Shown: piece by piece, positions 1,545 to 7,070 of the stretch | How the letters are laid out: each line of letters starts with the position of its first letter | Position numbering within the stretch: the stretch's first letter is position 1 | NCBI GenBank assembly: GCA_913065025.1 | Contig: CAJYAP010000001.1 | Coordinates: forward strand, 1-49,544 | Source of the DNA: an uncultured Gammaproteobacteria bacterium | GTDB taxonomy: Bacteria > Pseudomonadota > Gammaproteobacteria > Poriferisulfidales > GCA-002705445 | Length of the DNA stretch: 49,544 nt | Direction of reading: 5' to 3' | The notes under the pieces: generated by a model | Database searches by the model: none | What the model was told of the DNA's origin: nothing | The model's input: the letters and a program-made list of their open reading frames with translations, nothing else | Made by a program: the position numbers and the translations under genes

Positions 1545-1611
1545 AATAATAATAAACGAATTAATCGTTAATAATCAAAAACATAAGAATAATTGGAGAG
1601 AATAAATTTAA

Positions 1612-3423
1612 ATGGCAACTATTCCAGGTTTAGTATTATCACATAATAATAATCATCCTGATGCTGTAGCGCTTAGGTATAAACAATTAGGTATTTGGAA
1701 CTCATATAGTTGGTCTGATTATCTTGCAGAAGTCACATCATCAACAAATGCTTTAAAATCTTTGTCAATAGGAAAAGGAAGCGTGGTTGCAGTATATGGT
1801 AACAATGTACCAAAACTTATTTTTTCTATTTCAGCCATTCAAGCTTTAGGCGGAATCGTAGTCCCTATTCACCCAGAATCAACAAGTAGCGAACTTAAAA
1901 AAATACTAAGCGATTCAAAAACTGAAATCTTAATAGCTGAAGATCAACAACAAGTAGATACTTTTCTAGGTATTGAATCTGAATGCAGTGTAAATAAAGT
2001 TATTTATCTAGATGGAAGAGGAATGGCTACTTACAAAAATGAAAATTTGAATTCATTCGATGATCTTATTGTAAAATCAAATAATGCTAGCATCGAAAAT
2101 GACATTAATTCAATTAATGAAAATGACACAGCTTTCTATTTGTTTGATGAACATGAAGACTCGCTTTATAAGGTAAGTCATGCGGCAATAATAAATAATA
2201 GTTCTAAAATTATTACTTTGAATACTTTAACAGAGAAAGATTCTATAGTGTCGTATTTACCTTTATCTATACCAACAAATTTATTATTTACGTTTGTTAC
2301 TTCATTAAATAGCGGTATGTCATTAAATTTACCAGAAAGTAATCAAACTATAGAGAAAGATATACAAGAGATTGGCCCAACAATATTATATGCACCTTCT
2401 TTTGTGTTTAAACATATTATTACGTCTATAGCTTATAGAATTGAGTCAGCAAACGAGGCTAACTATAATAGGTACATGAATCACTATAAATCATTAATGG
2501 AAATCTATAACAAAGAAGTAAGTGGCGAGAGTTCCTTATTAGACAAAATTAAAAAGTCTTGGATAATGCTTACAACTTTTGCACCAGCTAAAAATGTGTT
2601 TGGTTTAACAAAAATAAAACATGCTTTTGTTAGTGATGGTGTTTTGTCAAAAGTTAACTTTGACTTCTTCCATGCAATTGGCGTTGAAATTCAACATTCT
2701 TTTGGGCAGGCAGCTTCATGTGGGTGTATATCTGTTCAGCCAGATCATTCCGTATCTTCTGAAAATGCAGGGAAAGCAATGACTGGATGCGAAATTAAAA
2801 TCAATGATGATTCTGAAGTTTGCTTTAAAACAGATTGTTCGGCAGAAAATTTAGCTGGTAGCAATAATTCTAATGACGGATGGGTAAATTCAGGTTACGT
2901 TGGAAAACTTGATGACGTTGGAAATATTGTTATTGATGGAAGATTAGAAGACATGATTACTTTGAAATCTGGCAAAAAGTTTTCACCTGAAAACATTGAA
3001 AACTTAATTTCCTGTTCTCCATTTGTAAAAGCAGCGGTAATTTTAGGAAATAATCAGGACTCAGTTTCAGCCATTGTAGTTATTGATCCTAATTCTGTAA
3101 ATTCATGGGCCGACAGAAAAAATATTAGGTATACGGGATATACTGAGCTAGCAAGTAAAGAAGAAGTTAAGGATTTAGTAAAAGAACATATAAGCTGTGT
3201 GAATGATAGCCTAGAATCATCGTTAAAAGTAAAAAGATTCGTTGTTCTTCATAGAACTCTTGTGATGAACGAAGGTGAAGTTTCAAAAACTATGGAAGTT
3301 ATGAGAAAAAAAATAGCAATAAATCTTAAAGATGTTTTAACAGCGATTGAGACCAATAAAGATAATTGCAAAGTTGATGATATAGATCAGTTATCCTATG
3401 AATTAGATATTAATAAAATATAA
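1612..3423 (+). CDS. AMP-binding (acyl-CoA synthetase-like) protein with degenerate active site
   Basis: First gene of the Liv-type transporter operon, preceded by GGAGAG ten bases before ATG. Over its 603 residues it follows the ANL superfamily fold of long-chain acyl-CoA synthetases: an N-terminal domain like that of FadD relatives found in liv operons, the A8 hinge region GRLEDMI (443-449) and a C-terminal lid. The catalytic motifs are eroded. The P-loop, normally YTSGTTGxPKG, reads LFDEHEDSLYKV at 177-188. The A5 motif YGxTE reads FGQAA (364-368). The ribose-binding Asp of TGD is Tyr429. The lid lysine of TPTLKVRRK aligns with Glu562. It is therefore probably a non-catalytic homologue. 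A role tied to the transporter is inferred from operon position only. Livg follows 17 bp later. The reading frame is intact and has ordinary codon use, so it does not look like a pseudogene. Confidence 0.8.
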   Translation: MATIPGLVLSHNNNHPDAVALRYKQLGIWNSYSWSDYLAEVTSSTNALKSLSIGKGSVVAVYGNNVPKLIFSISAIQALGGIVVPIHPESTSSELKKILSDSKTEILIAEDQQQVDTFLGIESECSVNKVIYLDGRGMATYKNENLNSFDDLIVKSNNASIENDINSINENDTAFYLFDEHEDSLYKVSHAAIINNSSKIITLNTLTEKDSIVSYLPLSIPTNLLFTFVTSLNSGMSLNLPESNQTIEKDIQEIGPTILYAPSFVFKHIITSIAYRIESANEANYNRYMNHYKSLMEIYNKEVSGESSLLDKIKKSWIMLTTFAPAKNVFGLTKIKHAFVSDGVLSKVNFDFFHAIGVEIQHSFGQAASCGCISVQPDHSVSSENAGKAMTGCEIKINDDSEVCFKTDCSAENLAGSNNSNDGWVNSGYVGKLDDVGNIVIDGRLEDMITLKSGKKFSPENIENLISCSPFVKAAVILGNNQDSVSAIVVIDPNSVNSWADRKNIRYTGYTELASKEEVKDLVKEHISCVNDSLESSLKVKRFVVLHRTLVMNEGEVSKTMEVMRKKIAINLKDVLTAIETNKDNCKVDDIDQLSYELDINKI

Positions 3424-3440: not shown

Positions 3441-4208
3441 ATGTCGGATATATTAAAAGTAGAAAATGTAACTCTTCAATTCGGAGGTGTTAAAGCTATT
3501 ACAGATATTAGTTTTAATGTTAAAGAAGGTGAAATCTGTGCAGTTATTGGCCCTAATGGTGCTGGAAAAAGCTCAATGCTAAATGTTATTAACGGGGTTT
3601 ACTTGCCACAAATTGGTACAGTTACATACGATGGTGTTGAAAGACAATCTATAAATCCTAGAGATGCTGCGATTGCAGGAATGGCTAGAACATTCCAGAA
3701 TATTGCTTTATTTCAAGGCATGAATGTCTTAGAAAATATTATGACAGGTAGAAATTTATTTATGAAGTCTACTTGGTTAGAGCAAGGATTAAATATAGGA
3801 AGAGCTAGAGAGGAAGAAAGAGTTAATAGGCTCGCTGTTGAAAAAGTAATAAAATTTTTACAAATTGAATCTATAAGGAAAACGCCAGTTTCAAAATTGC
3901 CATATGGTCTTCAAAAAAGAGTTGAGTTAGGTAGGGCATTAGTAGCTGAGCCTAAAATACTATTACTTGACGAGCCAATGGCAGGTATGAACTTAGAAGA
4001 AAAAGCGGACATGTCTTGTTTCATATTGGAAATAAATAAAGAACAAGGAATAACAACAGTTATGATTGAGCATGACATGGGTGTAGTAATGGATATATCA
4101 GACCATGTGGTAGTATTAGATTATGGTAAAAAAATTGGTGACGGTTCACCAAGTGAAGTTATGGCAAACCAAGATGTTATTGATGCATATCTTGGAGTTA
4201 GCCACTAA
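3441..4208 (+). CDS. livG: Branched-chain amino acid-type ABC transporter ATP-binding protein LivG
   Basis: Cytoplasmic ATPase subunit of a HAAT-family (LivGHMF) importer. Visible motifs: Walker A GPNGAGKSS at 37-45, Q-loop Gln86 in RTFQN, the LivG-style signature LPYGLQKR at 153-160, Walker B ILLLDEP at 173-179, and the switch His211 in IEHDMG. Its 255 residues match the usual LivG length. It lies 17 bp after the AMP-binding gene and 14 bp before livH. The family imports branched-chain amino acids, but relatives carry amides, urea or other small organics, so the substrate is not determined here, more so because no binding protein is encoded nearby. Confidence 0.92.
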   Translation: MSDILKVENVTLQFGGVKAITDISFNVKEGEICAVIGPNGAGKSSMLNVINGVYLPQIGTVTYDGVERQSINPRDAAIAGMARTFQNIALFQGMNVLENIMTGRNLFMKSTWLEQGLNIGRAREEERVNRLAVEKVIKFLQIESIRKTPVSKLPYGLQKRVELGRALVAEPKILLLDEPMAGMNLEEKADMSCFILEINKEQGITTVMIEHDMGVVMDISDHVVVLDYGKKIGDGSPSEVMANQDVIDAYLGVSH

Positions 4209-4222
4209 ATAGGGGTATTAAT

Positions 4223-5152
4223 ATGGATTGGGTTTATTTAATAGAAGTTTTGGTAGGTGGGTTGATGTCAGGAGTGATGTATTCACTTGTTGCGATTGGT
4301 TTTGTATTAATTTATAAATCGTCTGGAATATTTAACTTTGCTCAAGGAACAATGCTTTTATTTGCATCTTTAACTTTTGTTAAGATGACAGAAAATGGAA
4401 TAGATTTTTGGACATCATTATTTATTGCTGCAGGAATAATGGTTATATTTGGTGTTGTTACCGAGAGGTATGTAATTAGACCTTTGGCAAACCAAGATTT
4501 ATTAGCTTTATTCATGGCAACAGTGGGACTCGCAACTTTCCAGGAAGGTTTTTCTCAGTTCATATGGGATTCTGATGTTCATGGCTTACAAATGAGTAAA
4601 TTTTTAGATATTGGATTACTGGACCCAGCGCCAATATTTATGTCGGATCACGTTCCATGGCTAGATATTTTAATTCCAAAATTTGATATTTTTGCATCTC
4701 TAGTTGCTGGATCATTAATTGTAGTGCTAGCTTTCTTTTTCCAAAAAACAAAAACTGGTTTATCTTTAAGAGCAGTGTCAGATGATCATATGGCTGCTAT
4801 GGCAGTCGGAATACCACTTCAAACAGTTTGGGCAGTTGTTTGGGCTGTAACCGGAATTATAGCTCTAGTGGCAGGTTTGCTTTGGGCTGAAAGAGTCAGT
4901 GTATCATTCACATTAATTGAAGCTGTAATGAAAGCTCTCCCAGTTATATTAATTGGTGGTCTAACTTCTATACCTGGAGCTATTGTTGGTGGACTAGTTA
5001 TAGGGGTGGGAGAAAAATTGGGTGAGATATATTTAGCGGATGTATTTGGCGGACAAGGAATTGAATTATGGTTTGCGTATTTCATGGCGCTAATGTTCTT
5101 AGTGTTTAGGCCACAAGGCATGTTTGGCGAAAAATTAATTGAAAGGGTGTAA
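4223..5152 (+). CDS. livH: ABC transporter permease LivH
   Basis: Integral membrane subunit of the Liv-type importer. The 309-residue protein begins with the conserved LivH segment GLMSGVMYSLVAIGFVLIYK and the FNFAQG motif near residue 38, followed by about eight hydrophobic segments. The C-terminal region carries GGLTSIPGAIVGGLVIG, the conserved coupling-helix area contacting the ATPase subunits. The start is ATG at 4223, preceded by AGGGG. livM begins 4 bp after its stop, so the two permeases are probably translationally coupled. Confidence 0.92.
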   Translation: MDWVYLIEVLVGGLMSGVMYSLVAIGFVLIYKSSGIFNFAQGTMLLFASLTFVKMTENGIDFWTSLFIAAGIMVIFGVVTERYVIRPLANQDLLALFMATVGLATFQEGFSQFIWDSDVHGLQMSKFLDIGLLDPAPIFMSDHVPWLDILIPKFDIFASLVAGSLIVVLAFFFQKTKTGLSLRAVSDDHMAAMAVGIPLQTVWAVVWAVTGIIALVAGLLWAERVSVSFTLIEAVMKALPVILIGGLTSIPGAIVGGLVIGVGEKLGEIYLADVFGGQGIELWFAYFMALMFLVFRPQGMFGEKLIERV

Positions 5153-5156
5153 ATAA

Positions 5157-6251
5157 ATGATATATAGAGAAACAGGAAATTTTGTAACTAACTATTTTAA
5201 GGATAGAGAAATCTTTCCTCTGAAGTTTGATAAAGTAGTAGTGATATTAGGACTGCTATATTTATTTTTATATGTCCCAACAACTTCAGAATATTTTCTA
5301 AGTGCTCATGTGATACCAATTTTAGCAGTGGGGTTAGCAACTGTTGGTTTGAATATATTAACAGGATTAACAGGGCAGTTATCATTAGGAACAGCTGGAT
5401 TTATGTGTGTAGGCGCATTTGGAACATATAACTTAATGTTAAGAGTGCCTGATGCATTAATGTCTTTACCTTTTGCTTTGCTTTTATCTGGTATATTCGC
5501 TGGTTTAGTTGGTGTAATATTTGGACTTCCTGCAATAAGAATCAAAGGTTTTTATTTATTAGTATCAACATTAGCTGCTCAATATTTTGTTTGGTGGTTT
5601 TTTAATTCATACGCATGGTTTTTAAACTACGAGTCATCAGGGGTTGTAGCTATTGCACCAAAATTTTATGATTACTGGGGACTAGGTAACTTCTTAGGCG
5701 TTGATATGCAAGGTTATCCAGCAAGATATTTATTAGCTTTAGTTATATGTATAGGATTAAGTTATTTTGCTAAGAATTTATTAAGAAGTAATACAGGCAG
5801 AAACTTTATGTCAGTACGAGATAGAGATATAGCTGCTAGTGTAATGGGGATCAGTGTTCCTAAAGCAAAACTATTAGCATTCTTTATCAGTTGTTTTTAT
5901 TGTGGTGTTGCTGGTGGTATTTACTCATTTCTATATATTGGTAATGTTGATTTAATGATCTATGAGGTTGACCGTTCGTTTACTATATTATTTATGTTGA
6001 TTATTGGTGGTTTAGGATCTATTTCAGGTTCATGGTTAGGAGCTATATTTGTATACGAGTTCCCAATTATATTCACATGGGTAGGTGATTTTATATTTCA
6101 AGGTGCGTTTAATACAGCGGTAGTGGAAAATGTATCAAACATGGTTTACGGCGTATTTATTATTGCTCTTTTAATTAGAGAGCCTGGTGGATTTGCAGCA
6201 TTGTGGGCAACAACAAAACAAAAATTAAGAATGTGGCCATATCCACACTAA
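5157..6251 (+). CDS. livM: ABC transporter permease LivM
   Basis: Second membrane subunit of the Liv-type importer, 364 residues, within the family range. It shows the LivM hallmark GLTGQLSLGTAGFMCVGAF (residues about 69-87), the segment FGLPAIRIKGFYLLVSTLAA, and the C-terminal GGLGSISGSWLGA coupling region. The C-terminal tail ending in RMWPYPH resembles LivM proteins from operons that also carry an acyl-CoA synthetase-like gene. In those operons a periplasmic binding-protein gene usually follows livM. Here livF starts only 18 bp downstream, so that gene is missing. Confidence 0.92.
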   Translation: MIYRETGNFVTNYFKDREIFPLKFDKVVVILGLLYLFLYVPTTSEYFLSAHVIPILAVGLATVGLNILTGLTGQLSLGTAGFMCVGAFGTYNLMLRVPDALMSLPFALLLSGIFAGLVGVIFGLPAIRIKGFYLLVSTLAAQYFVWWFFNSYAWFLNYESSGVVAIAPKFYDYWGLGNFLGVDMQGYPARYLLALVICIGLSYFAKNLLRSNTGRNFMSVRDRDIAASVMGISVPKAKLLAFFISCFYCGVAGGIYSFLYIGNVDLMIYEVDRSFTILFMLIIGGLGSISGSWLGAIFVYEFPIIFTWVGDFIFQGAFNTAVVENVSNMVYGVFIIALLIREPGGFAALWATTKQKLRMWPYPH

Positions 6252-6269
6252 AGAATAAGAGGAAAAAAA

Positions 6270-7070
6270 ATGTCTAAATCTTTATTAAAAGTTAACAATA
6301 TCGAAGTTGTATATAACCATGTAATTCTTGCCTTACGTGGTGTTACGTTAGACGTTGAAGAAGGCAAAGTCGTTTCCTTGTTGGGTGCAAATGGATCTGG
6401 CAAAACTACAACTTTAAAAGCGTGCTCAAATTTACTACACGCAGAACGTGGAGCAATAACAAAAGGATCAATAGAGTATCAAGATAAAGATATAGCAAAC
6501 TCTGACGCATACAATCTTGTTAAAGATGGGGTAGTTCAGGTTTTAGAAGGAAGACATTGTTTTTCACATTTGACTGTTGAAGAAAATATTATGACCGGTT
6601 CATTTATTAGAGAAAATTCAAAAGAAGCAAAACAGGATCTTGAAAGAGTCTATGATCATTTTGAAAGAATAAGAATAAGAAAAAAAAGTTTAGCTGGCTT
6701 TACATCTGGTGGTGAGCAACAAATGATTGCTATGGGAAGAGCGTTAATGTCTAGACCAAAATTAATATTATTAGATGAGCCTTCGATGGGACTTGCACCT
6801 CAACTAGTAGAGGAAATATTTGCAATAGTTAAAGCTTTAAACAAAGAAGGCGTAAGTTTTCTTATTGCCGAGCAAAATGCCATGGTCGCTCTTAAATATG
6901 CTGACGAAGGATATCTTATTGAAAATGGTAGAGTTATTCTTAAAGGAAAAGCGCAAGAATTATTAGATAGACCTGATGTGAAAGAAATGTACCTTGGTGT
7001 AGGAGCAGAAGGGCAAACAAGCTTTAGAGATATTAAGTACTATCACAGAAGAAAACCTTCTTTTACCTAA
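6270..7070 (+). CDS. livF: ABC transporter ATP-binding protein LivF
   Basis: Second ATPase subunit of the importer, 266 residues. Walker A is GANGSGKTT at 39-47, the signature TSGGEQ at 145-150, Walker B LILLDE at 165-170, and the switch region IAEQNA follows. The C-terminal tail (FRDIKYYHRRK) is longer than in classical LivF and resembles that of LivF proteins in acyl-CoA-synthetase-linked liv operons. Start ATG at 6270 follows AGAGGA at good spacing. It is the last gene of the operon, and its 3' end overlaps the convergent rraA by 8 bp. Confidence 0.92.
   Translation: MSKSLLKVNNIEVVYNHVILALRGVTLDVEEGKVVSLLGANGSGKTTTLKACSNLLHAERGAITKGSIEYQDKDIANSDAYNLVKDGVVQVLEGRHCFSHLTVEENIMTGSFIRENSKEAKQDLERVYDHFERIRIRKKSLAGFTSGGEQQMIAMGRALMSRPKLILLDEPSMGLAPQLVEEIFAIVKALNKEGVSFLIAEQNAMVALKYADEGYLIENGRVILKGKAQELLDRPDVKEMYLGVGAEGQTSFRDIKYYHRRKPSFT

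Follow-up and report, generated by a model that had tools for sequence, protein, structure and literature searches.

At the head of a Liv-type importer operon in the window (by which we mean the whole 49,544-nucleotide stretch of DNA analysed, from an uncultured gammaproteobacterium) stands an intact gene for an acyl-CoA synthetase homologue that has lost its ATP site. The loss is a state of the whole family to which this genome belongs, seen in 11 orthologues, rather than the oddity of a single genome. We give an even chance to the view that the family protein is a noncatalytic partner of the importer, docking on it, binding its acid or both, that was retained after the lineage lost its CoA/beta-oxidation chemistry.

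Results

The gene and its product

The synthetase-like ORF encodes 603 residues from an ATG start read from the sequence, and it heads the operon: 17 bases separate it from livG-livH-livM-livF on the same strand (Table 1). An earlier note on this DNA had described a full-length protein with an intact frame and a good ribosome site, and the ORF, its start and the GGAGAG element are all as described there. A profile search places the product among ANL enzymes (PF00501, 122.5 bits; PF23562, 39.1 bits), with the FadD11 model as best NCBIfam match at a score far under that model's cut-off. The AlphaFold model (pLDDT 89.9, pTM 0.88) has the complete ANL enzyme fold, comprising the large N-terminal AMP-binding domain and the small C-terminal domain, and it matches structure 4wv3 with a VIA Z of 42.7 over 483 residues. 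The source genome assembly is 0.98 Mb and 83% complete. Scanning the operon for promoters and terminators gave no more sites than scanning shuffled sequence did.

Upstream, on the reverse strand at 555-1391 of the window, lies a gene for an MltF-like lytic transglycosylase that matches only 269-452 of the 483-residue MltF model and lacks the N-terminal part. Two other loci, L152 (2346-2990) and L153 (2313-3104), have short ORFs of similar appearance at this place.

Table 1. Features of the operon and of the synthetase-like protein (window coordinates)
Feature	Position	Strand	Basis or remark
Ribosome-binding site GGAGAG of the synthetase-like gene	1595..1600	+	read from sequence
ANL-fold acyl-CoA synthetase homologue with presumed dead ATP site, 603 aa	1612..3423	+	profiles, structure model, alignment
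Degenerate A3 P-loop LFDEHEDSLYKV, residues 177-188, three residues shorter than in relatives	2140..2175	+	alignment with 93 relatives
Conserved block, residues 241-276	2332..2439	+	0.91-0.98 identity in genus
Conserved block, residues 320-384, contains SFGQ	2569..2763	+	320-380 at 0.95 identity
A5 motif FGQAA, residues 364-368, degenerate, with Ala in place of the Mg-binding Glu	2701..2715	+	alignment
Tyr429 replacing the A7 (TGD) aspartate	2896..2898	+	alignment
Hinge residues Arg444 to Asp447, retained	2941..2952	+	alignment; GRLEDM = 443-448
Conserved block, residues 493-516 (PNSVNSWADRKNIRYTGYTELASK)	3088..3159	+	496-510 at 0.97 identity
Glu562 replacing the A10 lid lysine	3295..3297	+	alignment
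livG, ATPase	3441..4208	+	PF00005, PF12399; NCBIfam LivG best
livH, permease	4223..5152	+	PF02653; 93-99% identical across genus
livM, permease	5157..6251	+	PF02653; NCBIfam LivM best
livF, ATPase	6270..7070	+	PF00005; NCBIfam LivF best

Loss of the ATP site across the family

Orthologues of the 603-residue protein were collected from 10 of the 11 genomes of the genus (the window's included) and from the family's second genus, 11 in all; they are 69-86% identical within the genus and 51% identical in the other one. The single genus member that has no orthologue, G010, is 73% complete and likewise has no LivH. Motif conservation was judged against 93 liv-linked relatives, with non-liv synthetases as a second set. 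Ten core catalytic positions (T179, S180, G181, T182, T183, T367, E368, T427, D429 and K562) reach 96-100% conservation among the liv-linked relatives and are kept almost without exception in the non-liv synthetases. All ten are absent from all 11 family members, save T367 in one. At a retention mark of 90%, 10 of 10 core positions fail, compared with 42 of the 85 other positions conserved in relatives (Fisher p = 0.0018), and when all 17 motif positions are taken, including the retained G365, G428, R444 and D447, 13 fail (p = 0.06), both p-values being indicative because alignment columns are not independent. Judged from this alignment, the loss falls mainly on catalytic residues, and some of the motif scaffold survives.

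Each motif is affected in its own way. The A3 P-loop, whose consensus is [YF]TSGTTGxPKG, reads LFDEHEDSLYKV in the window and is lost in 11/11 family members, all of which have the pattern [LM][FY][DE]E with a three-residue deletion. At A5 (YGxTE) the family has SFGQ followed by A or T, with no Glu in any of the 11 members. The A7 aspartate (TGD) is Tyr or Phe throughout, NSG being followed by Y or F, and the A10 lid lysine is Glu, Asp or Gly throughout, in the context [ST]KTM then E/D/G as against TRTRK. In the A8 hinge, R444 is present in 11/11 members and D447 in 10/11. The earlier note had named the P-loop at 177-188, FGQAA at 364-368, Tyr429 and Glu562 as changed, and each was found where it had placed it; the intact YTSGTTG loop that it expected of relatives in liv operons was seen in the 93 liv-linked relatives. 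Its further claim of a kept scaffold and GRLEDMI hinge holds for the fold and, within the genus, for both R444 and D447, and gives way in the second genus, where D447 is Tyr.

The note had also named, as something that would refute its reading, an alignment that puts a conserved P-loop and lid lysine at other positions. Against the 93 liv-linked relatives, no relocated P-loop, Glu, Asp or Lys was found anywhere in the 603 residues. Lys559, which lies three residues from the lost lysine and is invariant in the family, was rejected as a relocated lid lysine: it aligns to Arg559 of the relatives, also basic, and is off the catalytic lysine position. Chance or assembly error was rejected as the source of the motif loss, since the same state occurs in 11 separately assembled genomes.

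Selection on the protein body

None of the 11 orthologues, at 51-86% identity, contains a stop or frameshift. The dN/dS of the synthetase gene is 0.075 (dS 0.45) and 0.084 (dS 0.98) in the two least saturated pairs, to which the figures are restricted because dS is saturated in the remaining pairs. At about 0.08, these values are well below 1, so the decay that the earlier note had proposed to check for by dN/dS is not indicated. The ratio of synthetase to Liv protein distance is 6.6 within the genus, where the Liv distance is small, versus 2.3 in catalytic relatives. The family synthetase is under weaker constraint than the catalytic enzyme (its evolution is about threefold faster relative to the transporter), yet it is far from evolving neutrally.

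The regional pattern emerges when genus pairs are set against relatives of similar overall divergence. Constraint has been lost at the P-loop (identity 0.72 in the genus vs 0.95 in relatives), the A8 hinge (0.70 vs 0.93), residues 433-444 (0.57 vs 0.80) and A10 (0.88 vs 1.00). Identity is higher in the genus at residues 241-262 (0.97 vs 0.86), 320-380 (0.95 vs 0.86), 337-347 (1.00 vs 0.96) and 496-510 (0.97 vs 0.82). By these identities, selection is shifted off the ATP-binding elements and is still strong on three other blocks (residues 241-276, 320-384 and 493-516), which might simply be the fold core. Kept in the family are 24 residues that liv-linked proteins conserve and non-liv synthetases do not.

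Linkage to the Liv importer

The Liv (HAAT) importer set, two LivG/F-type ATPases and two LivH/M-type permeases, is present and is 87-98% identical in the genus. The substrate-binding gene is placed differently from that of the sister lineages: there livK sits between livM and livF, where the window has an 18-base gap (6251-6270), and in 4/4 family genomes examined (G000, G001, G004 and G008) LivK is unlinked and lies beside proS and a LysR gene, its 5' part being at a contig end in G000. Within the genus the unlinked LivK proteins (loci L155, L156, L157 and L159) share ~94-95% identity, and with the operon-borne LivK of the sister lineages they share 65-78%. Since LivGHMF and the unlinked LivK are both kept, the transporter is complete and strongly conserved. 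The nearest solved structure to LivK, 4ru0, is named as putative only. Branched-chain amino acids are only a putative cargo of this importer; by analogy, the active-looking synthetase of the relatives points to organic or fatty acids.

Synthetase and transporter occur together. Of the 20 genomes in the window's order, 17 encode the synthetase, and LivH occurs in exactly those 17. In the order of G062 the synthetase accompanies LivH in each of the 13 genomes that hold LivH, so that across the two orders 0/30 LivH-bearing genomes are without it. Three genomes of the latter order (G291, G296 and G301; 82-99% complete, 90-240 contigs) have the synthetase with no LivH match, and three lack both. 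Across 80 loci from several phyla, Liv genes adjoin the synthetase, the exceptions being contig ends. If the importer keeps its synthetase once catalysis is gone, the synthetase probably serves the importer beyond chemistry. What the earlier note had called an intact pseudoenzyme at the head of a transporter operon is borne out by the open orthologues, the dN/dS of 0.075-0.084, the family-wide motif loss and the strict LivH linkage.

Two variant arrangements were seen. At seven outgroup loci (L081, L100, L108, L109, L111, L123 and L126) the synthetase gene is embedded between livG and livH. G013, from another family of the window's order, carries a solitary livK-livF pair (L158, 4243-6518); no match to LivH or to the synthetase was found in its genome despite this pair, a pattern that would fit loss or replacement of the operon's front half.

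History of the loss

Trees of the concatenated LivGHMF proteins and of the synthetase have the same branching, (G062-order lineage, (Porisulfidus-type family, window's family)), with SH-aLRT values of 97-100. Long branches meet in the synthetase tree, and the transporter tree, with much shorter branches there, has the same order. The synthetases of the G062 order keep Glu, TGD (with one exception, TRD) and Lys, and their P-loop is YT[AS]GTSG, with Lys mostly replaced by Arg; to judge by these residues they are probably active. In the Porisulfidus-type family, Glu, Asp (as THD or TYD), Lys and TSGT are kept, the second half of the P-loop is lost, and the hinge Arg is lost in 5/6. In the window's family all motifs are gone except the hinge. 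Because these graded motif states run over three lineages and the trees agree, loss of the ATP site looks stepwise, passing through two sister lineages.

Some labels and loci deserve a remark. Within the G062 order, L023, L024, L066 and L168-L182 combine the odd P-loop YT[AS]GTSG and a changed A8 with retained Glu, TGD and Lys, and these synthetases probably remain active on a different substrate or with changed chemistry. 'Candidatus Porisulfidus' falls in another family of the window's order, and L055 and L154 are one locus. The window's genus is represented among public records by 'Gammaproteobacteria bacterium MED781', AG-390-O20 and AH-287-I11; the last two (L051, L052) are labelled 'uncultured Thiothrix sp.', which seems unlikely for AT-rich genomes of only ~1 Mb.

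Discussion

The metabolic setting may explain why catalysis was lost. Acyl-CoA dehydrogenase (PF00441) is absent in 11/12 genomes of the family and present in the order's two other families, save for one 76%-complete genome. The sole family match (G000:C27:4-270) is a contig-edge fragment in the window's own assembly and a possible contamination. Nearly all family genomes have one other PF00501 protein, which is of the Aas-like acyl-ACP/phospholipid type in the window's genome, and G004 has a third PF00501 protein. A pimelate-specific phenotype is common to an ABC transporter of beta-proteobacteria and the acyl-CoA ligase encoded under the next locus tag (PMC12543098), and this pair likely illustrates, by analogy, the ancestral role of the liv-linked synthetase.

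On the reading that we favor, the ancestor would have been an acyl-CoA synthetase co-encoded with a Liv-type importer, coupling CoA to the acid brought in. When this small-genome marine lineage of Gammaproteobacteria gave up its CoA/beta-oxidation route, CoA activation of the imported acid would no longer have led anywhere, catalysis would have become dispensable for that reason, and the ATP site could have decayed fully while the protein body stayed under selection along with the importer. The retained protein would dock on the cytoplasmic side of the importer, bind the incoming acid, or both, and in this way may assist importer assembly or gate transport. Given the residues lost, the family protein presumably has no adenylation activity; that it touches the transporter and binds a ligand, and what that ligand would be, are likewise what we infer. 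A broader claim, which we hold only tentatively, is that a liv-linked synthetase is a genuine accessory subunit on which transport depends whether or not it acts as an enzyme, and that the lineage that lost catalysis but kept the subunit exposes this hidden structural or gating role. The regulatory, scaffolding or sensing role suggested in the earlier note is plausible and partly supported, being compatible with the retained constraint, which is not a demonstration of it.

The same constraint could be read differently. A free-standing sensor would bind the imported acid or its CoA ester in the acyl pocket and regulate metabolism or expression through a contact other than the transporter; regions 205-275 and 320-380, on the acyl-pocket side by motif order, do stand at 0.88-0.95 identity while the ATP elements relax. 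The synthetase gene strictly co-occurs with livGHMF and adjoins it, which points to a role tied to the transporter instead, and no regulator gene was found within the synthetase-livGHMF operon, so we regard such a sensor as unlikely. Strong purifying selection would also suit a neofunctionalised enzyme, with a reaction free of the adenylation motifs (ATP-independent acyl or CoA chemistry, for example) or with a very divergent site that uses Lys559, and the invariance of that lysine and the acidic Glu180 at the former catalytic loops lend this some color. Against it, the P-loop, Mg-binding Glu, ribose-binding Asp and lid Lys are all lost, A3, A8 and A10 are relaxed, and no new catalytic-looking motif was recognised in the sequence; we consider it quite improbable.

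That the protein still adenylates, by very unusual motifs, has a slim chance. The fold is intact and the hinge pair Arg444/Asp447 is kept, but Glu368, Asp429 and Lys562 are all lost and the triphosphate loop now carries an acidic Asp or Glu at 179 next to Glu180. As for a decaying gene, in which catalysis was lost during genome reduction and pseudogenisation is under way in a copy carried along by the operon, the faster evolution relative to the transporter and the lost beta-oxidation genes are what it would predict. However, a dN/dS of about 0.08 contradicts it, no broken copy was seen among the 11 orthologues of the two genera, and blocks persist at 0.95-1.00 identity; pseudogene decay is therefore ruled out, to within a very small residual probability.

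If the noncatalytic-partner reading is true, a Liv-family ABC importer would have a cytoplasmic accessory subunit of enzyme origin. A natural, apparently dead synthetase makes it testable whether importer-linked acyl-CoA synthetases act physically on the transporter. The three related lineages, moreover, record how an enzyme turned step by step into a presumed pseudoenzyme during genome reduction.

Comparison with known systems

Pseudoenzymes are inactive homologues retained for regulation or scaffolding, with an intact fold, purifying selection and lost catalytic residues. The family protein is likewise one whose catalytic residues are gone and whose fold is kept (by alignment and the AlphaFold model), under purifying selection across 11 open orthologues. 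Pseudoenzymes as a concept are already known; what appears new here is a presumed dead ANL protein co-encoded with an ABC importer, for which we found no precedent in open-access papers, itself weak evidence of absence. One candidate precedent, a report that FadD is 'indirectly connected' to an ABC permease (PMC10226988), was set aside, its basis being a STRING network together with docking. The pimelate pair (PMC12543098) joins an ABC importer and a ligase as here, but the ligase there is thought to be active.

The closest comparisons lie within the liv-linked synthetases themselves. The FadD11-like enzymes (ANL, PF00501 and PF23562) of Dechloromonas (L070), Cupriavidus (L084) and Azoarcus (L086) have the fold and the position before livG in common with the family protein at ~30% identity, together with K24, G27, G63, Q112, D116, Y141, W499, D590 and other residues. 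Unlike them, the window's family has lost all catalytic residues of the ATP site and has livK outside the operon. The Porisulfidus-type synthetase (L017-L022, L154) belongs to the same operon, and its hinge and the second half of its P-loop are also degenerate, but it retains TSGT, the A5 Glu, the A7 Asp and the A10 Lys that the window's family has lost.
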